This document shows, piece after piece, positions 9,843 to 35,908 of a stretch of DNA of 35,908 nt (its first letter is position 1; every line of letters begins with the position of its first letter). This DNA comes from a virus: positions 1 through 35,908 of the IMG/VR virus record IMGVR_UViG_3300042376_001553. The stretch is one strand, 5' to 3'. A program made the translations under genes and the position numbers. Under the pieces are notes generated by a model, which worked only from the letters and a program-made list of their open reading frames with translations, had not been told where the DNA came from and made no database searches.

Positions 9843-9850
9843 TATATTTG
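9843..9850 (+). promoter_or_regulatory. Promoter of a short RNA
   Basis: TATATTTG full -7 match. The closest TTG (9817-9819) is 23 bases upstream, slightly long. No ORF follows before the terminator at 9912-9938. Confidence 0.5.
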
Positions 9851-9855
9851 CTGTT

Positions 9856-9938
9856 AGTTGAAAATTAAATTGAATTTAAGAATTCATTTTGCTTTGTCAT
9901 AGCAAAAAAGGGAGAGGCCAATGGCTTCTCTTTTTATT
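9856..9938 (+). ncRNA. Candidate small RNA of about 80 bases
   Basis: Bounded by a TATATTTG promoter and a Rho-independent terminator with no ORF in between. It contains a perfect hairpin, TTTTGCT-7 bases-AGCAAAA, followed by the terminator stem. Most of the 5' part is unstructured A/T-rich sequence. The alternative is a leftover leader or simply the 3' end of the upstream operon with a chance -7 match. Confidence 0.4.
9912..9938 (+). terminator. Rho-independent terminator
   Basis: GAGAGGCC (9912-9919) pairs with GGCTTCTC (9923-9930), one G-U pair, around a 3-base loop. TTTTTATTTT follows and an A-run precedes it. It ends the 8329-9830 transcription unit or the short RNA at 9856. The flanking A-run may allow weak termination on the other strand too. 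Confidence 0.8.
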
Positions 9939-9945
9939 TTATGCT

Positions 9946-12074: not shown

Positions 12075-12938
12075 ATGGCAGACAAGAATTTCAAAGGAGG
12101 TCCAGGAGGCAGGCTCAAAGCAGCAGCGGCTAATTTTATAAAACCTACAACGCAGGATTCGCTGGACTTATATAATCAGGCCAAGGTTATAAATAAGTTT
12201 TATGGCTCAAACTCAAATTATCAAAAAGTAAGCGAAACTCCTTTTGATAAATATTTAAAGCAAAACAAAACAAGTTATAAGGACTTATTAACAGAACCAA
12301 GTGGTTCTTACGGAATTACTCTTTTATCAAGGCCATCAAATGTAAAAACTTTAAATCAAGAATTTGGTACAAAAACAACTTCAAAAGAACTTGAGAGTAA
12401 GTTTAAAAACAAAGGAGTTTTTAGTGCATATCCAAATTTATTTAGAGGTCACTATGATGTCTATACAAATCCTAATGTCCCACCAATCTATCTGCATCCT
12501 TCTATAAAACCACAATTCGTTACACAGTATGAGGCTGGGGTATATACGGATGTGGCAGATGTACCAAAATATGACCCAATTGCTATTAAGCCCGTTTCTA
12601 TGCTCACGCCAAAAGAGCGTCAGTTAAGAGAGAAAAAATATGGGTCAATATCTCCCGTTCAAGTAATAAAACGCAAAGTTTCCGAGGAGGTAGAACCTCT
12701 CGCTCCTCGGCAATATCCCGCTCCAACATTCACTCCAGGCGAAATGATTGCTCCTGTAATGCGCCCTGTAAGCGTTCCTGAGCCAATGCCTATGAAAGAG
12801 CCTGTAATGGAAGAGGAGGTTGTTACGGAGCGTCCTATGAGTCGTAAGCCCCCAAGAGCCGTTATGCCACGGAGGGCAGGGGGATGGAGCAATCAGCCGT
12901 TGCTTATGAAGCTCTTCCCGAAACTTTACGAGAAATAA
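12075..12938 (+). CDS. Hypothetical protein with Pro/Met-rich C-terminal part (287 aa)
   Basis: Starts MADKNFKGGPGGRLKAAAAN. The middle is AT-rich in DNA and Lys/Asn/Tyr-rich in protein; from about residue 175 it becomes Pro/Val/Met/Glu-rich (FTPGEMIAPVMRPVSVPEPM) and ends in a basic, aromatic tail with RRAGGWSNQPLLMKLFPKLY. The shift in base composition within the gene suggests mosaic exchange. May be a structural or scaffold-type protein; no family recognised. Confidence 0.72.
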   Translation: MADKNFKGGPGGRLKAAAANFIKPTTQDSLDLYNQAKVINKFYGSNSNYQKVSETPFDKYLKQNKTSYKDLLTEPSGSYGITLLSRPSNVKTLNQEFGTKTTSKELESKFKNKGVFSAYPNLFRGHYDVYTNPNVPPIYLHPSIKPQFVTQYEAGVYTDVADVPKYDPIAIKPVSMLTPKERQLREKKYGSISPVQVIKRKVSEEVEPLAPRQYPAPTFTPGEMIAPVMRPVSVPEPMPMKEPVMEEEVVTERPMSRKPPRAVMPRRAGGWSNQPLLMKLFPKLYEK

Positions 12939-12940
12939 TT

Positions 12941-12972
12941 TTGGAATTGTGAAATAAAGCTGCCTACCTTTG
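12941..12972 (+). promoter_or_regulatory. Strong promoter of the structured RNA
   Basis: TTG (12941-12943), 21 bases, TACCTTTG (12965-12972). The spacer contains GTGAAATAA, as in the promoters at 35-66 and 29352-29382. Confidence 0.78.
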
Positions 12973-12976
12973 CAGA

Positions 12977-13083
12977 GCCGAAAGGCCGCTGGGTAGGAGC
13001 AGCGAGTTGTTAAGATATTACGCCCCTTTGTCCGCTGAGTAGAGACTCCTACCTCGAAAGGCGAACAAAGGGGTTTTTATTTT
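12977..13083 (+). ncRNA. Structured RNA with potential pseudoknot and terminator
   Basis: In order: GCC-GAAA-GGC hairpin (12977-12986); CGCTG/CAGCG hairpin (12987-13004) whose whole 8-base loop GGTAGGAG is complementary to CTCCTACC (13046-13053); a 9-bp stem CCCCTTTGT (13023-13031) with ACAAAGGGG (13065-13073), followed by TTTTTATTTT. The loop partner lies inside the terminator stem's 33-base loop, so the pairings interleave as a pseudoknot or kissing interaction. A GAGT-AGAG-ACTC hairpin (13037-13048) competes with it. Promoter at 12941, and the gene at 13084 begins right after the T-tract. Either a free RNA or an attenuator leader. I do not recognise a known family. Confidence 0.75.
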
Positions 13084-13344
13084 ATGAAAAAATCAAATTT
13101 TAATCCAGTACAAATTCCTCAAGACTTATTAACAAATCCATTGGTTTCATTGTCTGCAAAAGGCTTATATGCCTTTTTACAAATTTTCAATGAAGATGGG
13201 CAAATGGATTTTGAATTTATGTGCAAATCGTACAATATTAATAAGGATGAGTTTGATAATTCTATGGATGAACTCATACATCATGGATATGTTTCCATTG
13301 AAACTCAATTTGGATTGCTTGTTTATGTCTTAAATGGAATTTAG
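13084..13344 (+). CDS. Small winged-helix protein (86 aa)
   Basis: Starts MKKSNFNPVQIPQDLLTNPL, then LVSLSAKGLYAFLQIFNEDG and NINKDEFDNSMDELIHHGYV followed by beta wing. This is the fold used at the N-terminus of phage replication initiation proteins and many regulators. It directly follows the structured RNA at 12977-13083 and precedes a larger replication protein by two bases, so a role in replication control is plausible. Base composition is AT-rich like the start of its neighbour. Confidence 0.7.
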   Translation: MKKSNFNPVQIPQDLLTNPLVSLSAKGLYAFLQIFNEDGQMDFEFMCKSYNINKDEFDNSMDELIHHGYVSIETQFGLLVYVLNGI

Positions 13345-13346
13345 AT

Positions 13347-14084
13347 ATGAATCACTCGTTTGATATTAGTTACGCAAAAAAGTATGGCGTTGATGAGGCC
13401 ATAATGATTTCAAATTTTCAGTATTGGCTTAAAAAAAATTGGGCTAATGAAAAGCACAAGCACGATGGGCGAACTTGGACATATAATTCCATAGTTGCAT
13501 TTGAGAAGTTGTTCCCTTATTGGACTGCCAAGCAAATTAGAAGGGTTCTTGATTCTCTTGTTTCGCAAGGCGTACTTATGAGAGGCGAGTACAACAAGAG
13601 TATTTATGATAGGACTTCGTGGTATGCTTTTGTAGAGGAATCGACATTTCTTTTTGGGAATCACGACTTGCCCATTTGGGCAAATCAAGATGACCAAAAG
13701 GGCGAACCTATACCAAATATAAACACAGATATAAACACAAATACAATAATCCCCCCTTTATCCCCCCAAGGGGAAACAGAAGGGGTAGATTTCAGAGGTT
13801 TGAAAGACGCTGTTCAATTATGGCTGAAGTACAAAGCAGAAAAGAAGCAGAAGTACAAATCCAATTCTTCTGTACAAGCCATGATAAACAAACTTTATAC
13901 TCTTTCAAACGGAAGCGCAGAACTTGCTATACAAATCATAGAAGAGGCTATGTCTAACAACTATCAAGGATTCTTCGCCCTAAAAAACAAAAATAGGGAC
14001 GGACACCATAATGTTCCGCCGGCGGCCCCGTCCCGCAAAATTCACGAATCATTTAATTTTAACAATACAAACAATGAAATTTGA
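13347..14084 (+). CDS. Phage replication protein, winged helix plus DnaD-like part
   Basis: 245 residues. N-terminal winged helix: MNHSFDISYAKKYGVDEAIM, FPYWTAKQIRRVLDSLVSQG, then a wing with YNKSIYDRTSWYAF. A linker (PPLSPQGETEGVD) leads to a C-terminal helical region AVQLWLKYKAEKKQKYKSN and LAIQIIEEAMSNNYQGFFAL, like the DnaD/DnaB2 primosome segment. Role by family: origin melting or helicase loading. It is followed by the DnaB-type helicase with an 11-base overlap, the usual initiator-loader then helicase order. Confidence 0.8.
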   Translation: MNHSFDISYAKKYGVDEAIMISNFQYWLKKNWANEKHKHDGRTWTYNSIVAFEKLFPYWTAKQIRRVLDSLVSQGVLMRGEYNKSIYDRTSWYAFVEESTFLFGNHDLPIWANQDDQKGEPIPNINTDINTNTIIPPLSPQGETEGVDFRGLKDAVQLWLKYKAEKKQKYKSNSSVQAMINKLYTLSNGSAELAIQIIEEAMSNNYQGFFALKNKNRDGHHNVPPAAPSRKIHESFNFNNTNNEI

Positions 14085-15438
14085 AAATGAAGACTTGGAA
14101 AAGCAGGTGCTTTCCGCAATGATGCTTTCTGACGAGGAAAGACTAACAGCCTTCTCCGCCCTTCCCACCTTAGAAATTTTCCAAATAGCCAAAAACAGAA
14201 TTATTGCCGAAGGCATACAAGCCTTGCAGGAGGCCGGAGAATCTGTTAGCTTGGAAACCGTAGCCGACACCTTGAAGAAATCAGGACTGATGAAGGAGGC
14301 GGGCGGTGTAGCCCATCTCGCTAATGTTTTCTCAAGCCTTAAAAAGCCGGGCTATGTAGAAGTTCACTGCCGCATTCTGATTGAGCACTACCTTCGGACT
14401 AAAGCCCACCTCATAGCTACAGACCTTCTTGCTAAAACAAATAGCGACACGGGAGACATCTTCGACATCCTAAACAAAATCCAAGTGAGCACTGATGCGC
14501 TCCTTGCCCAAACAATAAGCAAATCTGACGATAACTTTCATGAGCAACTTGAAGAATCCGCAGCAATGTGGATGAATAAGGCTTCTGGGGAGATAGCAGG
14601 ATATAGAACGGGCGTGGAAAGCCTTGATAGGCTATGTGGCGGCCTTACGAATTCAGAACTCACCATTGTGGGAGCAAGGCCGGGACAGGGCAAGACGGCA
14701 CTTGTCGTGAGCTTGATGCGTAACCTTGCCAAGCAAGGGATAGGGTGTGGCCTATTCAGTTTGGAAATGTCCAAGCACGAAGTGGTGCAAAGGCTCGCAA
14801 GTCAGGAGTCGGGAATATTTGCCTATAAAATGAAGCAGGGAGAAATGTCTAATTACGACAAATCAAACCTGATGGATGCCGTTCATAGGATGAAAAGCTG
14901 GAACATAAAAATCAGCGATGAGGGGTATTTAAACATGAATAAGATACGGGCTAAGGCTACAATGTGGAGGAACAAGTTTAACATTAAAGTGATTTTCGTG
15001 GACTACATTGGCCTCATCAACAGCAATAACCCAAAGGAAACAAACAGGGTGAATGTAGTGGGCGAAATCAGTAGGGGCTTGAAACTGCTTGCAAGAGAAC
15101 TTGACGTTCCTGTTGTTGCCCTAAGTCAGCTTTCCCGAAAGGTGGAAGAGCGAAATGACAAGATGCCGATAATGTCTGACCTTCGGGAGTCGGGGTCTGT
15201 CGAGCAAGATGCTGACGTGATATGGATGATGTTTCGTCCTGAAACGTATGATGAGAATGGGACATTCAAGATGGGCACGGTGGAAATTCCCAACAAGGGA
15301 CTTTGCATCATAGACCAAGTTAAGATGCGTTCGGGCTCTACAGGAATCGTTCCTTTGCAATTCGATGGCCCCTTAATGCGAATCAAGGAATATACGCAGC
15401 AAGAAGACAAGCATTCGCATGATGGCCATCCATTCTAA
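14074..15438 (+). CDS. dnaB: DnaB-type replicative DNA helicase
   Basis: 454 residues. N-terminal DnaB domain (LEKQVLSAMMLSDEERLTAF, HLANVFSSLKKPGYVEVHC) then the RecA-like ATPase: Walker A ARPGQGKTAL starting about residue 200, LFSLEMSKHEVVQRLASQ, Walker B VIFVDYIGLI, and RESGSVEQDADVIWM. It would unwind DNA 5' to 3' at the phage fork. I start at MKFENEDLEKQVLSAMM; the in-frame extension upstream (MFRRRPRPAK) lies in the preceding gene. No primase domain or phage polymerase is present in the window, so host factors are likely used. Confidence 0.95.
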   Translation: MKFENEDLEKQVLSAMMLSDEERLTAFSALPTLEIFQIAKNRIIAEGIQALQEAGESVSLETVADTLKKSGLMKEAGGVAHLANVFSSLKKPGYVEVHCRILIEHYLRTKAHLIATDLLAKTNSDTGDIFDILNKIQVSTDALLAQTISKSDDNFHEQLEESAAMWMNKASGEIAGYRTGVESLDRLCGGLTNSELTIVGARPGQGKTALVVSLMRNLAKQGIGCGLFSLEMSKHEVVQRLASQESGIFAYKMKQGEMSNYDKSNLMDAVHRMKSWNIKISDEGYLNMNKIRAKATMWRNKFNIKVIFVDYIGLINSNNPKETNRVNVVGEISRGLKLLARELDVPVVALSQLSRKVEERNDKMPIMSDLRESGSVEQDADVIWMMFRPETYDENGTFKMGTVEIPNKGLCIIDQVKMRSGSTGIVPLQFDGPLMRIKEYTQQEDKHSHDGHPF

Positions 15439-16728: not shown

Positions 16729-16788
16729 ATGGCGCACAAGACAACGGCAAACCAGAACAATTGCCGTAGAATTAATATAGTCAGATAG
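16729..16788 (+). CDS. Possible 19-codon leader ORF
   Basis: ATG at 16729 opens MAHKTTANQNNCRRINIVR, and its TAG (16786-16788) is formed by bases 8-10 of the tRNA-like element. A hairpin ACGGCAA (16744-16750) with TTGCCGT (16761-16767) lies within it. Ribosomes ending here would cover the acceptor strand of the tRNA-like element. It could be chance; listed as a leader-peptide candidate. Confidence 0.25.
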   Translation: MAHKTTANQNNCRRINIVR

Positions 16789-16849
16789 CTTAATGGTTAA
16801 AGCCCTGGGATGACCCGGAAGATTGCAGGTTCAATTCCTGCTCTGACTA
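16779..16849 (+). tRNA. tRNA-like element with a defective anticodon arm
   Basis: Acceptor AGTCAGA/TCTGACT (7 bp), T8 A9, D-stem GCTT/AAGC with loop AATGGTTA (GG present), and T-arm GCAGG-TTCAATT-CCTGC are all intact, with discriminator A. CCA is not encoded. The middle arm is abnormal: CTGGG (16805-16809) pairs with CCCGG (16814-16818) across only ATGA, a 4-base loop in place of seven, so no anticodon can be read. Either a degenerate tRNA or a deliberate tRNA mimic. Not called as a functional tRNA. Confidence 0.6.
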
Positions 16850-16854
16850 CTAAG

Positions 16855-29399: not shown

Positions 29400-32300
29400 A
29401 TGGCTGAAGTAATAAATGGCGAATCACCAAGGAAGCAGCTCTACAGGCTTTTGTTAAACGATAAAACCCCGGGAGTTGCTGACAAAATAAAGAGATATTC
29501 GTTTTCCCAATTTGAGAATAACCTCCTCAATAACGAAAACGCTCAGAAAGAACTTGGGTGGTACTTAGAAAGCAAGAAAATTGTTTCTGACCCTGTGGAC
29601 TTTAGTGAGCGTTACCTTCAAATAGAAGCCCCTAAGCCCGCCCCCGCCCCCAAGGCCGCTCCTGTCGCCCCATTCCAACAGCCTGTTGAACCGATGGCTA
29701 TGGAGGGCGTTCCTGTCGGCATTGCTGCTCCTAAGCCGACAAAAGCACCCGCTCCTTCCGTTACGGACTACGCAAGGGAAATGGCGTTTGAGCCACAAAT
29801 TGAAGCCCCTGTTAAGCCAATAGGCGTAATGGCCCCACAGCCTATTCAAGAGCCAATTCCTTCTGTTACAGAAACGGCAAGGGAGATGGCATTTCAGCCT
29901 CCCGCAGCACCAAAGAAGCCAAAGGAAAAAGAACGTGGCTTCATGGAATGGACGGGGGATGTTTTCGGAACTATTTCGGCAGGAGGAGAAAGGATAGCCA
30001 AGAACATTCTTGCCGGAATTGGGCATTATGCACAAGCTCAAGCTGCCACAGACCCAATGGCTTCATTGTCTTACGAGAAAAGGCAGCAAATGCTTCAGGA
30101 GGCAGGACAGACAATGTACGACATTGCTGATGCGGCGCAGAAGGACTTTCAAAACGAAGTGGCTAAAAGAAACATTGAAACGAGTGTTCTTCAAGCCATT
30201 GATAAAAAGCAATACAAAAACATTCCCGAAGCTGTACTATACACCGTAGGGGATGCGGCAATGCAGATTATCCCTTCTGTTCTGACAATGGGCGGAAGTA
30301 CATATTTACAAACACTCCCTACGGCCTATAAAGATGGTGTAGAGGCAATAGCAAAAGAGAAAGGCATATCCCCAGAGCAAGTGATTGCAAGCGGGGAAGA
30401 CGCTATGGTGGTGGCTTCAATTTCTTCAGGATTTCAAAGCGCATTGGAGAATGTCGGTGCGGGACAAGTAAGTAAGGCCATAGCAAGTAAGGGAGCCTAT
30501 AAGGCCGTTCGTGATTGGCTTCTTAAACAAAATGTAAACAAAAACCTTGCAAGAGGTGCTGCTCTGTTAGGAGTTGGTATAGGGGAGGGAACGACAGAAT
30601 ACTTTCAGGAGGGAGTGGGGCAAGCAGGCGTAATAGCCGCCAAGTCTCCAACGACAAAGGCATTCTTTGAAAGACTTCCAAAGGAATTATTCACTGCGGA
30701 AGCCGAAAAGCAAAGGCAGGAATCGTTTGTTGGCGGTCTTATAGGCGGTGGTGGCCTTGCGGGAGCAGGACGTGCCATAACAAAGGCGCTTGAAAAGCCT
30801 GCGAAACAGCCATCCATCACTCCCGAAGCCGAAGTAGCCCCCGAAGCCCCAATAGTTCCACCCGTAGCTACACCTGCCGCTCCCGAAGTTATTCCCGCTC
30901 AGGAGGACGAAGACTTAGCGGCCCTGAACGAACAGATTGCCGCAATAGAGGGCGCTCCTGTCGAGGAGGAAGTGGTAGCGGAGGAAGCTCCTGCCGCTTC
31001 TGTTGCTCCCTTAAATATTGACTTCTCAAAGAACGAAGGGCGTAATGTAAACTATCAGGGCGTACAAGGTCGAATCAAGATTGATTCAGATGGCGTTCCT
31101 TATGTGTTTACAAAGGATGGCGATGTAGTTTACATTGAAGGAGGACTATCAGGCCAAACTCCACAGCAATTAGGCGTACAGCCGCTTGCTGATGATGTAA
31201 TAAGCGAAACAGATATAGAGGCCGTTCTTCAAGACGAGGGCGCTCCGTTAGACCAAGGGCAGTTAGAATACGACTTCGAAAACAATAGCATCACCCTTTA
31301 CGGGAAGCCATTCACTTATGATGGCGTTGAGGTTAATTCAAAAGGCCAAACAACCGCCTTGAGGCTGAAGGATGCTAATGGGAAGACTAAGTATGTCCGT
31401 AATGAGGACACTATTTTAGAATTTGAAATTCAAAAAGAGCTATATGAAAAATCAAAAAGCAACAAGCCCCTCACAGTCGAGTCAGCCATCCAAGCAGCCG
31501 AGCAACTACAGGTTAGCCCTGTCGCCCGACCTAAACAAGTTCCTCGGCCAGTACAGCAAGAAAGACCAGTTGGAGATATTGCGGAATATGAAGTAGGCCC
31601 TGTTGAGGAAGAAATATTCACTGTCAATCCAGAAACCGAGCTTTTCCAAACCATTATAGACAACGGAGAACCAGTGGTTAGCCGTTACGATGCGGAAAAA
31701 AGAATAGGGGATGGAGAAAGGTTATTTGGATATAATGAACAAGATGAAGGATTGGTGGAGCTTTCGCTAAGTAATCTTGACGCATTCCCAATTGATACAA
31801 TTATAGCCGTTAGGCCAGAGGCCATTGAAGCCGCTCCCGTAGAGGAAGCCCCCGTTGCTGCCGAGGAAGAATTGGTGGCGGCAGTTCCTGCTGCTCCTGC
31901 TCCGAAAGTGGAGAAGCCTCAGCCTAAGAAGGAGGGGGTGGAATTAAATAAAGAAAATAAAATATTACTAAATGGGAAGGAGATAGGAGAGGTTGAAGGA
32001 CTGTATAAAGTAATTGATAACGAATATCAAATTTCCGGAATTAAAATTAATGATAAGTCATTAAGAGGCAAAGGATATGGCAAAGAGGCTTATAGGCAAT
32101 TAATAAAAAAGTTGCAGGAGGAAGGTAAAATTTTGATTTCAGATGATTCCGCTTTATCAAAGGATGCAAAAAATATTTGGGAGTCTCTTGTAAAAAGCAG
32201 GGAAGCGAAAAAAACAAATACAGGATATGAATCAATATCCATCTCAAAAACAAAAGCAGAGCCTATATCAGGTAAGAGCGCAAAGGAAATGTCCCTTGAT

Positions 32301-35300
32301 GAACTAAAGGCGGAGAGTTCTCTATTTGATGAAAAGATAAAGGCCGAAAAAGAAAGGCTTAATAAAATAGCTCCAAATAGGCAAGTATTGGGAGGGGCTG
32401 ATATTGATAACCTCTCTCCAGAAGATGCCGCTCGTTCTGTTGAGGTGAATGACGAGATAGGCAGAAGGGAAAGAGTAAGCCAAGAAGAAGCGAAGAAGCG
32501 TGTTGCCGAAAAAAGGGAGCAGCGCAGAAAAGAACAAGAAGCCCCAAAGAGAAAGCAAATAGACAGGAAGAGTGTCGAATCCGCTCTTGGAGATGCAAAG
32601 GAGGAATACAGAAAATCCAAAGAAGCCTTTGATAAAAAGAGGGCTGAACTTGACAAATCCACAAAAGAAGATGTAACGGATATTTTTGGAGCAAGGAAAG
32701 CACAAGAAAAATCAGGAGGTCTTTTTGAAATGCCACGCATAAGCCCTGAACAAAGAGAAAAGGCGATACAGCCGTTCAGGGACAGAATGAATAAAGCAAA
32801 GGAGGAAGTTAATAGGCTTACCAAAATGCTTGAGGAAGGGGAAGAAGCTGGTAAAGAAATAGAATTTAAAAAAGAAATAGATGAAACCAAACAATTACCA
32901 AGAAGCCGTTCAGAAGTACGGGAAGAAGAAGGTGGACGAGTTCCTGAAAAGGGCGTACCGCCTTCAAAGCCAAAAAAGGCAAAAGCAGTCCGGAAGCCTG
33001 GGTTAATAGCCCAAGCTAAAATAATTGAAACACAAAACCCGGAAATACTTGCAATACAAGGGCTTATATCTTTAGGCCGCCTTCATCCAAAAGTAATAGA
33101 AAAAATATTTGGAGGGGGGAGAAGCAAGAATATACAAGGCGAAAGAAAGGCGAGGATAGGATATTTGGATAAGAAAAGCCCTCACATTTCCACCGATGGT
33201 ATTGCCGAAAAAGTGGCAGTGTTTATGGCGGAGGCATTAAATATGGATGTCGCCGATGTGAATGAAAGATATAACGTAAGGGACTATGTAGAAGAGGCAA
33301 TTAAAAAACACAATAGCTATGCCTCGATGGCCAAAGAAGTTATTGAGCTTGATGCGCAAGATAGAAATGCGGGGATAGATGAAGATGCGGCTTATGGCGA
33401 GTATCTAAGACAGCAAGAAGAACAGGCGGCCATACTGGGAGCAGAGTATAATCAAGACGTTGCTGATGAGGTTTGGGATGCTGCATTCAATCAAATGACA
33501 GAAGATGATTGGAAGGCATTAGACCAAATGAGGATAATGGACTATTTGGCCCAAATGGACGAAGTAGAGGTAAAGGCAGAGGAAACGAAACCATTAGAGG
33601 AGGATTATTTTAATGGGGATAAAATTGCCTACACAAATGAGGATGCCCCAAAAGGATTTCGTACTTTCATTTATCTTGATGGAATCAAAGCCGGAGAAAC
33701 AGGACTTGTTAGAACAAAAGAAGCTCAGGCAGAAGATGTAAAAAAGAAGCAAGAAGAATTTAGAGAGCAACAAGAGGGCTTTAAGAGAATTCGTGAAAGC
33801 GGCTTGTCATCTCAGATGCCCAAATCACCCGAAACGAAGCCTGCCGAGGAAAGGAAGAAAGAGAGAGAAACCAAAGAGGTCATCTCTCAGCCTACAAAAC
33901 CAAAAGGAGAGGGGGCTACAATCTTACCATCAATAGATGCCGACAAGGCCGAAGCTCAATTATATATTTCTCAAAAAAGAAATTACTATACACTTTGGTA
34001 TAAGAGGAGACGTGTTAACACAACAAGAGGCAAGGAAGAATATACTTATTCATACAACTACCTAACTATACTATCTCAAAATCTTGAAGATGCGAGAACA
34101 AAGGCTCTTGACTATCTCAATAGTATTGCATCTGGTGAGTCTTTATCGGTTGCCTTTGAGGGTAAAAACATTCAGGATTTAAGGGGTGCTAAAACAATTG
34201 CCCTTCAAGAAAAAGTAATTAGTCCAGAAACCGAGACTATTGTAAAGTCCAAATCTCCGGATATAAAAACAAATTTTGGCATTGGGAAGTATTCTGGAAT
34301 TACAATAGATGAATTACTTGATAAGGATATTGATTATGCCGAATGGTTTGTTAATAACTACACATCAAGAGGAGCCGACAAAACAAAAGCAATCATCAAG
34401 GGAGACCCAAGGTATCAAGAGTACCTTACTATAAAAAGGGATATACAAGACCTTGAAAGAGCAAGGATAGAGGCTTATGAAAAAAGGGAGGCGGAACGAA
34501 AAGAAGGCAAACAAGTCCCCGTTGCAACACTTGTAAGAGGAGAGGGAGGCAAAATAAAAGAGGTGGTAGAGGAGACTGAGGTTGCTAAAAAGAAAGTAGA
34601 AAAGAAAGAGAGGAGGCTTGTAAAAGACCAAATCACAGACATAATACCACCACAAACAAAGGCAGACGACAAGGTTGATGATGGCTTAAAGCCTCAAATG
34701 TTTAAAGCGCAAATTGACGGAGCAAACACCGCAATTGCGTCTATGGACAAGAATGGGGTTCTCTTAAATGGAGACGGAGCAGGCGTGGGGAAAACAAGGC
34801 AAATAATTGCTGTTGCAAAGTATTATGCCGACAAGGGAAAGCCCGTTGTTATCATTTCTGAAAATGCAGCCATTGGCAAACCTTGGGAAAGTGGTAAACA
34901 ACCTATGCTTGGCGGCTCTATGGCAAAAGACAGCGAGGCGATGGGCGTTAATCTTACACTACTAACTGATGATAAAAAAGTTCAGTCTGGAGGAATATAT
35001 GTAAGCACATACAATCGAATTCAAGATGCTGACGTTCCAAGTGGAGCAATAGTTATTTTTGATGAATCGCAAAATCTTGTAAACACATTTGGAAGAACTC
35101 CTGGTGGTGATGTGCAAGAAGAAAGGCAATGGGAGGCTAAATTTAGACCCATGCTTAAAAAAGCGGGAGCCGTTGCATATTATTCCGCAACACCAGCAGA
35201 CAAGCCTCATCAACTTGCATACCTGTATAAAGTTCTTGGCTTTAATTCGCCTGAAGATTTCTTGTCAGAAATGATGAACAATGGCGCAATTATTAAGACA

Positions 35301-35908
35301 AAGAAATACGGAAAGCAAGAGGTAAAGTATTATGATGTTCCAGCAGGTAGAACCCAAAGAGCCAGATTATACAATTGGGTAAATAGCCTGATGGTTAAGG
35401 CTGGACAAGAGGGAAGATTTGTTAAAAGAGAAATTTCTTACGAAGGAACTGATGTGCAGTTTCACGATGTAAAAGGAACGGATGAGGGTAGAAATGAATA
35501 CGCAAAAGAATTCAACAAGGTTTTAGATGATTTAAATGATGCAGAGATGATGGAGTATAGGCTTCTTGCGCCAAGCTCCTATATTCTTTACGCTGCGGAG
35601 CTTTCTAAAATAGGCGAGGCAGTAGGCATTGTTAAAAAACAACTTGCGCAAGGAAGGAAATCTATAATTTTTGTTTCCCGAATAAACCCTATGGAAATTA
35701 GGGGTAGAAGACAGCAAATGGCTGGCGAGTTTGGAGCCCCTGAAGTTATAGGTGAAATACCAAGCCCCGTTCCTATGCTTGAAGAAGCATTAAAAAAGGA
35801 GGGCATTAGTTTTGTTGGCTTGCATTCAAAAGCCAAGACAACATCCCAAAAAGCACAAAAGGCTTTTTCTGAAGATGCTGATGTTCTTATAGCATCATTA
35901 GAATCGGG
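29400..35908 (+). CDS. Giant polyvalent protein with GNAT-like domain and SF2 helicase (partial)
   Basis: 2169 codons without a stop, running past the window end. Layout by residue: short helical head (1-75); Pro/Ala-rich linker with a repeated PSVT-x2-AREMAF unit (about 119 and 154); hydrophobic, Gly-rich region (about 280-470) of the kind seen in membrane-crossing ejection proteins; acidic linkers; GNAT-like region with RGKGYG at 889-894; long charged coiled coils; a GKYSG-type DUF3820-like patch near 1629; then an SF2 helicase: Walker A GDGAGVGKT at about 1791, DESQ at 1888, SAT at 1929. The helicase resembles strawberry-notch/DarB types. Probably carried in the virion and ejected; that is inference. 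Own promoter at 29352. Confidence 0.85.
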   Translation, partial: MAEVINGESPRKQLYRLLLNDKTPGVADKIKRYSFSQFENNLLNNENAQKELGWYLESKKIVSDPVDFSERYLQIEAPKPAPAPKAAPVAPFQQPVEPMAMEGVPVGIAAPKPTKAPAPSVTDYAREMAFEPQIEAPVKPIGVMAPQPIQEPIPSVTETAREMAFQPPAAPKKPKEKERGFMEWTGDVFGTISAGGERIAKNILAGIGHYAQAQAATDPMASLSYEKRQQMLQEAGQTMYDIADAAQKDFQNEVAKRNIETSVLQAIDKKQYKNIPEAVLYTVGDAAMQIIPSVLTMGGSTYLQTLPTAYKDGVEAIAKEKGISPEQVIASGEDAMVVASISSGFQSALENVGAGQVSKAIASKGAYKAVRDWLLKQNVNKNLARGAALLGVGIGEGTTEYFQEGVGQAGVIAAKSPTTKAFFERLPKELFTAEAEKQRQESFVGGLIGGGGLAGAGRAITKALEKPAKQPSITPEAEVAPEAPIVPPVATPAAPEVIPAQEDEDLAALNEQIAAIEGAPVEEEVVAEEAPAASVAPLNIDFSKNEGRNVNYQGVQGRIKIDSDGVPYVFTKDGDVVYIEGGLSGQTPQQLGVQPLADDVISETDIEAVLQDEGAPLDQGQLEYDFENNSITLYGKPFTYDGVEVNSKGQTTALRLKDANGKTKYVRNEDTILEFEIQKELYEKSKSNKPLTVESAIQAAEQLQVSPVARPKQVPRPVQQERPVGDIAEYEVGPVEEEIFTVNPETELFQTIIDNGEPVVSRYDAEKRIGDGERLFGYNEQDEGLVELSLSNLDAFPIDTIIAVRPEAIEAAPVEEAPVAAEEELVAAVPAAPAPKVEKPQPKKEGVELNKENKILLNGKEIGEVEGLYKVIDNEYQISGIKINDKSLRGKGYGKEAYRQLIKKLQEEGKILISDDSALSKDAKNIWESLVKSREAKKTNTGYESISISKTKAEPISGKSAKEMSLDELKAESSLFDEKIKAEKERLNKIAPNRQVLGGADIDNLSPEDAARSVEVNDEIGRRERVSQEEAKKRVAEKREQRRKEQEAPKRKQIDRKSVESALGDAKEEYRKSKEAFDKKRAELDKSTKEDVTDIFGARKAQEKSGGLFEMPRISPEQREKAIQPFRDRMNKAKEEVNRLTKMLEEGEEAGKEIEFKKEIDETKQLPRSRSEVREEEGGRVPEKGVPPSKPKKAKAVRKPGLIAQAKIIETQNPEILAIQGLISLGRLHPKVIEKIFGGGRSKNIQGERKARIGYLDKKSPHISTDGIAEKVAVFMAEALNMDVADVNERYNVRDYVEEAIKKHNSYASMAKEVIELDAQDRNAGIDEDAAYGEYLRQQEEQAAILGAEYNQDVADEVWDAAFNQMTEDDWKALDQMRIMDYLAQMDEVEVKAEETKPLEEDYFNGDKIAYTNEDAPKGFRTFIYLDGIKAGETGLVRTKEAQAEDVKKKQEEFREQQEGFKRIRESGLSSQMPKSPETKPAEERKKERETKEVISQPTKPKGEGATILPSIDADKAEAQLYISQKRNYYTLWYKRRRVNTTRGKEEYTYSYNYLTILSQNLEDARTKALDYLNSIASGESLSVAFEGKNIQDLRGAKTIALQEKVISPETETIVKSKSPDIKTNFGIGKYSGITIDELLDKDIDYAEWFVNNYTSRGADKTKAIIKGDPRYQEYLTIKRDIQDLERARIEAYEKREAERKEGKQVPVATLVRGEGGKIKEVVEETEVAKKKVEKKERRLVKDQITDIIPPQTKADDKVDDGLKPQMFKAQIDGANTAIASMDKNGVLLNGDGAGVGKTRQIIAVAKYYADKGKPVVIISENAAIGKPWESGKQPMLGGSMAKDSEAMGVNLTLLTDDKKVQSGGIYVSTYNRIQDADVPSGAIVIFDESQNLVNTFGRTPGGDVQEERQWEAKFRPMLKKAGAVAYYSATPADKPHQLAYLYKVLGFNSPEDFLSEMMNNGAIIKTKKYGKQEVKYYDVPAGRTQRARLYNWVNSLMVKAGQEGRFVKREISYEGTDVQFHDVKGTDEGRNEYAKEFNKVLDDLNDAEMMEYRLLAPSSYILYAAELSKIGEAVGIVKKQLAQGRKSIIFVSRINPMEIRGRRQQMAGEFGAPEVIGEIPSPVPMLEEALKKEGISFVGLHSKAKTTSQKAQKAFSEDADVLIASLES

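Follow-up and report, generated by a model that had tools for sequence, protein, structure and literature searches.

The pairing between a hairpin loop and the loop of the following terminator, proposed in an earlier sequence-only reading of this DNA, is real and belongs to a covarying, structured RNA placed directly ahead of phage replication genes. The surprising part is that this loop-to-terminator wiring is repeated in unrelated RNAs. The DNA is an IMG/VR virus record of 35,908 nucleotides (the 35.9-kb window), whose gene content (terminase, DnaB helicase, DnaD-like initiator) and TTTG/TAnnTTTG promoters point to a phage with a Bacteroidetes host; its terminase is distantly similar to those of Flavobacterium elemo and Cellulophaga phages. 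The RNA is carried by an unclassified family of Bacteroidetes viruses.

Promoter and layout of the class I RNA

The RNA locus sits on the forward strand, between an open reading frame at 12075-12938 and the replication genes. Matches to the Bacteroidetes promoter consensus TTTG/TAnnTTTG (PMC7366714) predict a sigma-ABfr-type promoter with a -33 element TTTG at 12940-12943 and a -7 element TACCTTTG at 12965-12972, and transcription would be expected to start at about 12975-12979. Nearly all homologues have a TAnnTTTG-like box 5' of the first hairpin. The RNA itself, which we call class I, extends from 12977 to 13079 and scores 117.6 bits with covariance model R1, a self-member score, as the model was built on 21 members including the window sequence. 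It opens with hairpin H1 (12977-12986; GCC-GAAA-GGC, with a GAAA tetraloop), which is 100% paired among the homologues with a CG-to-UA exchange, followed by hairpin H2 (12987-13004; CGCTG-GGTAGGAG-CAGCG), which has double-sided changes in three of its five pairs. The H2 loop, GGTAGGAG at 12992-12999, is the first strand of the covarying kissing helix. A variable, AT-rich linker (13005-13022), devoid of a conserved start codon in class I, leads to the terminator stem P3, defined by the class I alignment as CCCCTTTGT-C-CGCT at 13023-13036 paired with GGCG-A-ACAAAGGGG at 13060-13073. P3 had been described as a stem of 9 bp; it is in fact a 13-bp helix (9+4 bp) interrupted by a conserved C.A mismatch. 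Enclosed by P3 are the two strands of a sarcin-ricin (bulged-G) motif (GAGTA at 13037-13041, TAGTA in most relatives; GAAA at 13056-13059, GAAC in most relatives), an inner 2-bp helix that the alignment forms from GA at 13042-13043 and TC at 13054-13055, with both pairs doubly changed, and the second kissing strand, CTCCTACC at 13046-13053, which lies within the terminator loop.

The T-tract TTTTTATTTT (13074-13083) abuts the stem in homologues despite changes in stem length, and this G+C-rich stem directly abutting a T-tract, kept across homologues, is what would be expected of an intrinsic terminator. The promoter, the GAAA hairpin, the CGCTG/CAGCG hairpin, the RNA of about 105 nt and the T-tract are all present at 12940-13083, as the sequence-only reading had described, and the next gene indeed begins right after the T-tract, with an ATG at 13084 that opens the frame of a replication-initiation-type helix-turn-helix protein.

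Covariation of the kissing helix

An exact 8-mer complement of the H2 loop occurs in a shuffled terminator loop with p = 2.5e-5, and the locus folds with z = -2.7 relative to shuffles when the pseudoknot is left out of the fold. None of 60 shuffled loci fitted a descriptor of the complete layout, compared with dozens of real ones. A search for homologues with nhmmer and pattern scans on IMG/VR phage contigs yielded 21 distinct class I RNAs, in which both the kissing pairs and the helices covary. Standard pairs fill 98.9% of the pair cells of their alignment, and 10 pairs are doubly changed, in 46 cells (counted as sequences, not as independent events), a level reached by 0/500 shuffles; when partners were shifted by 1 to 3 columns as a control, only 39 to 47% of the cells paired. 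The kissing strands occur as GTAGGAG/CTCCTAC, GTAGCAG/CTGCTAC and GTAGAGG/CCTCTAC, each an exact complement, and covariation extends to H1, H2, P3 and the inner helix, the last of which takes the forms GA/TC, GG/CC and AG/CT. One relative, L003, differs from the window in both H2 and the kissing helix, with compensation on the partner strands, while the identity of the replication genes is about 98%.

These data refine the pairing as it was first proposed. The exact complement of the 8-base loop holds in the window; homologues keep seven pairs in 21/21 cases, and the outer, eighth pair is kept in 16/21 and fails in 5/21. The interleaved pairing described as a pseudoknot is upheld by the covariation, with the geometry of a loop-to-loop kiss. 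The alternative of a switch between kissing and termination is not supported, since the pairing lies inside the terminator loop and is compatible with P3; we found no mutually exclusive antiterminator conformation. A competing GAGT-AGAG-ACTC hairpin, considered as part of such a switch, was rejected as an antiterminator because it is present in just 4 of the 21 class I sequences.

All class I RNAs carry an invariant AGUA/GAA that joins P3 to the inner helix. Including the outer pair, the forms are UAGUA/GAAC (U-C, 14 sequences), GAGUA/GAAA (G-A, 5 sequences) and UAGUA/GAAA (U-A, 2 sequences). The sarcin-ricin motif is [N]AGUA/GAA[N], with U-C as the prototype outer pair and with G-A, C-A, C-C and A-A also seen, G-A being a studied variant (PMC8450098). 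The class I sequences match this motif.

Class II RNAs occupy the same site

In relatives without class I, the site is occupied by an RNA of about 128 nt with the same plan, which we call class II. It comprises a GNRA-type H1, an H2 with a 9-nt loop, a P3 stem (CCCCATTCGG/CCGGATGGGG) with a T-tract, AGUA/GAA in most sequences, a helix P4, an apical hairpin and a strand that kisses the H2 loop. Among 31 class II sequences, 98.9% of the cells pair and 13 pairs are doubly changed, in 109 cells (0/500 shuffles); pairing in the kissing helix is complete (100%), and compensation is seen in 4/6 of its pairs. Most sequences fit the sarcin-ricin motif with C/A outer pairs, and 5 of the 31 tallied deviate. 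A second covarying pseudoknot, from the linker to the apical loop, had a summed score of 137.5, compared with 102.8 +/- 4.2 in shuffled sequences (0/1000).

Class II also contains a frame of 30 to 44 codons, starting at an ATG in the linker and ending at or after the start of the next gene, which is open in 38/38 sequences (L032 1937, L046 3989, L133 and 35 others). Its overall dN/dS of 0.89 shows no sign of selection on the peptide, and the value for the first five codons is 0.26. Translational coupling to the next gene is possible.

We treat classes I and II as subclasses because layout, site, H1 and the sarcin-ricin motif are common to both. Cross-matches of R1 to class II (1e-5 to 1e-3) were rejected as proof of homology, since reverse-strand palindromic copies of P3 score equally (L079, 32.9 bits).

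Unrelated RNAs with the same wiring

A generic scan and pattern scans retrieved three further RNAs, unrelated in sequence, in which a hairpin loop is likewise complementary to a terminator loop. These classes III to V (L018 4453, L009 2008, L012 1327, L017 2142 and relatives) lie ahead of replication-module genes in more distant phages. Class III kisses through GATCTCAC/GTGAGATC, and its stem covaries (GGCAC/GTGCC, GGAAC/GTTCC and GGTGT/ACACC); class IV kisses through GTAGCCG/CGGCTAC or GTAGCAG/CTGCTAC, and class V through GTGAGAG/CTCTCAC, set in a 16-nt terminator loop. The kissing sequences of classes III and V are identical within their members and therefore show no covariation. The generic scan has a background of 11 matches in 1.45 Mb of shuffled sequence, which is not negligible, and kissing changes in classes III to V are few or absent, so the evidence for these classes, drawn from their recurrence and position, is weaker than for I and II. 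A profile search identifies the gene behind class III (L018) as a replication initiator, and class V precedes that same gene in other phages, so III and V are interchangeable; the initiator assignment downstream rests on these two classes and not on class IV. The recurrence of the wiring in unrelated RNAs suggests a shared on/off control of viral replication.

Exchange and distribution of the RNAs

Each of the 35- to 37-kb records checked carries one forward-strand RNA, class I or class II, and records of 44 to 69 kb carry class I followed by class II about 365 nt further on, or class I alone. In the tandem arrangements (L106, L113, L115 and L119), each RNA has its own promoter-like box, and the one small gene between the two differs between phages.

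The RNA is exchanged as a cassette, to judge from comparisons of identity. It is better conserved than the flanking genes: the RNA of L125 is 97.4% identical to that of the window, compared with 71 to 75% for matched flanks. Moreover, phages with 97 to 99% identical replication regions carry class I RNAs with different loops, or class II; the window, L003/L123 and L004/L027 have near-identical replication regions and three different loops.

The sequence-only reading recognized no known family, and indeed Rfam 15 gave no match to any class at the gathering score (only tRNA), nor near it in an E-value search. DNA similarity searches of 50,697 phage records returned short chance matches only. Exact class I and class II patterns were absent from 84,980 bacterial species genomes, so nothing points to prophages that carry these sequences, a search that does not cover divergent forms. 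With the same restriction, R1 and R2 found no match in the cultured relatives Flavobacterium elemo, Cellulophaga phi38:1 and phi19:3, Tenacibaculum Gundel_1, Bacteroides C3_41T2LP or Burkholderia BcepMigl phages. No description of such RNAs was found in the literature (open papers).

The downstream replication module

The first gene behind the RNA (13084-13344) encodes an 86-aa helix-turn-helix protein of replication-initiation type (phrog_22134/phrog_4221; HTH_36 below cut-off). Next on this strand come genes for a replication initiation or DnaD-like protein (13347-14084; phrog_11233 at 5.6e-34, phrog_6493) and a DnaB-like replicative helicase (14074-15438; phrog_19 at 6.8e-87, start taken at MKFENEDLEK). 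Each homologue examined has an ATG on the strand of the RNA, mostly 4 to 6 nt past the modeled end, that opens a variable gene. The first genes are nonhomologous, and the block behind them is a replication module (initiator plus helicase/primase) of varying families. At class I and class II loci, the stretch between RNA and helicase is a hot spot for accessory genes, including CoiA-like, DUF6291 and unknown 57- to 70-aa proteins.

We found no forward-strand TTTG/TAnnTTTG promoter between 12972 and 16673, in a scan that phage-specific promoters would escape. For this reason, the replication operon probably needs read-through of the RNA terminator.

Other features of the window include a tRNA-like gene at 16779-16850 (Rfam tRNA, 53.9 bits), located after a TATATTTG promoter, to which ARAGORN assigns no anticodon (two letters, tg). 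At 9843-9945, a TATATTTGC promoter is followed by about 60 nt, a 13-bp terminator-like hairpin with TTTTTATTTT, and then a TATATTTG box before a metallophosphoesterase gene. A reading frame that stays open for at least 2169 aa (29400-35906) runs off the end of the record and contains helicase-like motifs, recognized by eye only.

Function of the RNA and alternative explanations

The sequence-only reading had left three roles side by side: attenuator, ligand-sensing leader and stand-alone RNA. The position of the RNA favors an attenuator or leader, and we give about an even chance to a cis-acting transcription attenuator or leader of the phage replication operon. The sigma-ABfr promoter would start the transcript at H1, and H2 would form before the 5' strand of the terminator, the sarcin-ricin motif and CTCCTACC are transcribed. 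The H2 loop would then kiss CTCCTACC inside the terminator loop, and P3 with the T-tract would terminate most transcripts, presumably yielding an RNA of about 105 nt, while read-through would express the replication genes beginning a few nucleotides downstream. The compact fold created by the kiss and the sarcin-ricin motif might set the ratio of termination to read-through, by its stability or as a candidate binding site for a protein or ligand. The kiss and P3 can coexist, so kissing would adjust the level of termination and not act by exclusion; in this the RNA departs from a classical attenuator, a point against the reading. This cis reading is favored because the kissing and the helices covary while stem and T-tract stay contiguous at varying stem length, as an intrinsic terminator requires; because the RNA-to-ATG spacing stays tight even where the genes differ, with a replication module always downstream; and because five RNA classes share wiring and position.

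Cassette exchange and the better conservation of the RNA also fit a stand-alone, terminated small RNA (about 105 nt) with host or phage targets in trans; leak would then account for transcription of the gene that follows. Such an RNA, which we consider rather improbable, would account for the promoter at the 5' end, the intrinsic terminator at the 3' end, the exchange between divergent phages (L125) and a compact fold that includes a sarcin-ricin motif, a frequent protein site (PMC7247131). However, the same-strand reading frame lies at a near-fixed distance, at the head of a replication module, and the replacement of class I by sequence-unrelated RNAs of the same wiring suggests that selection acts on the wiring and not on a target in trans. 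Changes of the loop under strict complementarity fit kissing in trans, but they also fit simple drift. Through the H2 loop, terminated copies could pair with leaders being transcribed from sister genomes, adjusting termination as replication feedback, with different loops defining specificity groups. Loops do vary with complementarity kept (three class I variants, several in class II), including the three loops among near-identical replication regions, and among plasmids, ColIb-P9/IncB and pT181 control their replication by loop kissing or RNA-driven attenuation (cited in PMC10724649). Yet both strands are present in one RNA, so pairing in cis should win; no antisense promoter was seen within 600 nt, and phages, unlike plasmids, do not replicate under a copy-number limit. 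We therefore regard this as unlikely. The same holds for a bolder proposal, which we would call a long shot, in which interchangeable, unrelated RNAs of Bacteroidetes phages follow a common logic, the kiss between a hairpin loop and the terminator loop before a replication initiator; the kiss would be a diversifying specificity code, and terminated copies would mediate dosage control or superinfection incompatibility between genomes, as happens in plasmids.

It is equally doubtful that the RNA is a riboswitch or protein-bound leader, with the H1/H2/P3 fold as sensor and P3 as expression platform. Leaders that bind ligands or proteins repeatedly contain kissing loops and sarcin-ricin/loop E motifs (PMC12510878, PMC7247131), the lysine riboswitch containing a G-bulge motif (PMC12510878), and many unpaired or noncanonical positions are invariant. 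On the other hand, there is little sequence in common between classes I and II and none among III to V, making a common ligand pocket unlikely, and no metabolic genes are found downstream. A transcript that primes replication close to an origin (R-loop), or a 5' stabilizer of the mRNA, would suit the head of a replication module and a 5' hairpin at the presumed transcript start but is very improbable: the GC skew has no switch at 13 kb (it changes near 7 to 8 kb), on which ground an origin here was rejected, and no conserved downstream hybrid-forming tract was seen.

Comparison with known systems

The cis attenuator or leader that we favor has its nearest counterparts in plasmids (ColIb-P9, IncB and pT181, cited in PMC10724649). 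The ColIb-P9 repZ and IncB/IncL/M rep leaders likewise place a structured leader with internal loop pairing before a replication initiator, and class II shares with the ColIb-P9/IncB type a short frame overlapping the next start codon. Here, by contrast, the partner is held by a terminator stem, the carrier is a phage, and class I is without a leader frame; a leader peptide coupled to the rep start was rejected for class I because no conserved open reading frame was found. No antisense promoter opposite the leader was found either, the nearest reverse-strand match to a Bacteroidetes-type promoter (13714-13746) lying more than 600 nt off in a low-complexity repeat. With pT181 attenuation, the RNA has in common a terminator before a replication gene under RNA pairing, whereas here no countertranscript was found and the pairing is within the same strand.

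Among phage RNAs, HK022 put resembles the class I RNA in following an early promoter and in having two 5' hairpins, and its role is on transcription. However, put is an RNA of about 70 nt with two stem-loops and without terminator or kissing, in contrast to the short H1 and H2 and the 13-bp terminator-like P3 that holds the kissing partner (PMC9378689); action through the zinc-binding domain of the RNA polymerase beta' subunit is a feature of put. The lysine riboswitch and the T-box share loop-loop kissing and/or a bulged G beside a terminator, but here the partner is in the terminator loop itself, with neither an Rfam match nor related downstream genes.

To our knowledge, only a small number of leader RNAs have been described in phages other than the lambdoid ones, and how Bacteroidetes phages regulate their genes has hardly been studied. 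The RNA is a candidate new family for Rfam, and the exchange of an RNA better conserved than its neighboring genes for unrelated RNAs wired alike points to selection for a regulatory principle that switches on phage replication.
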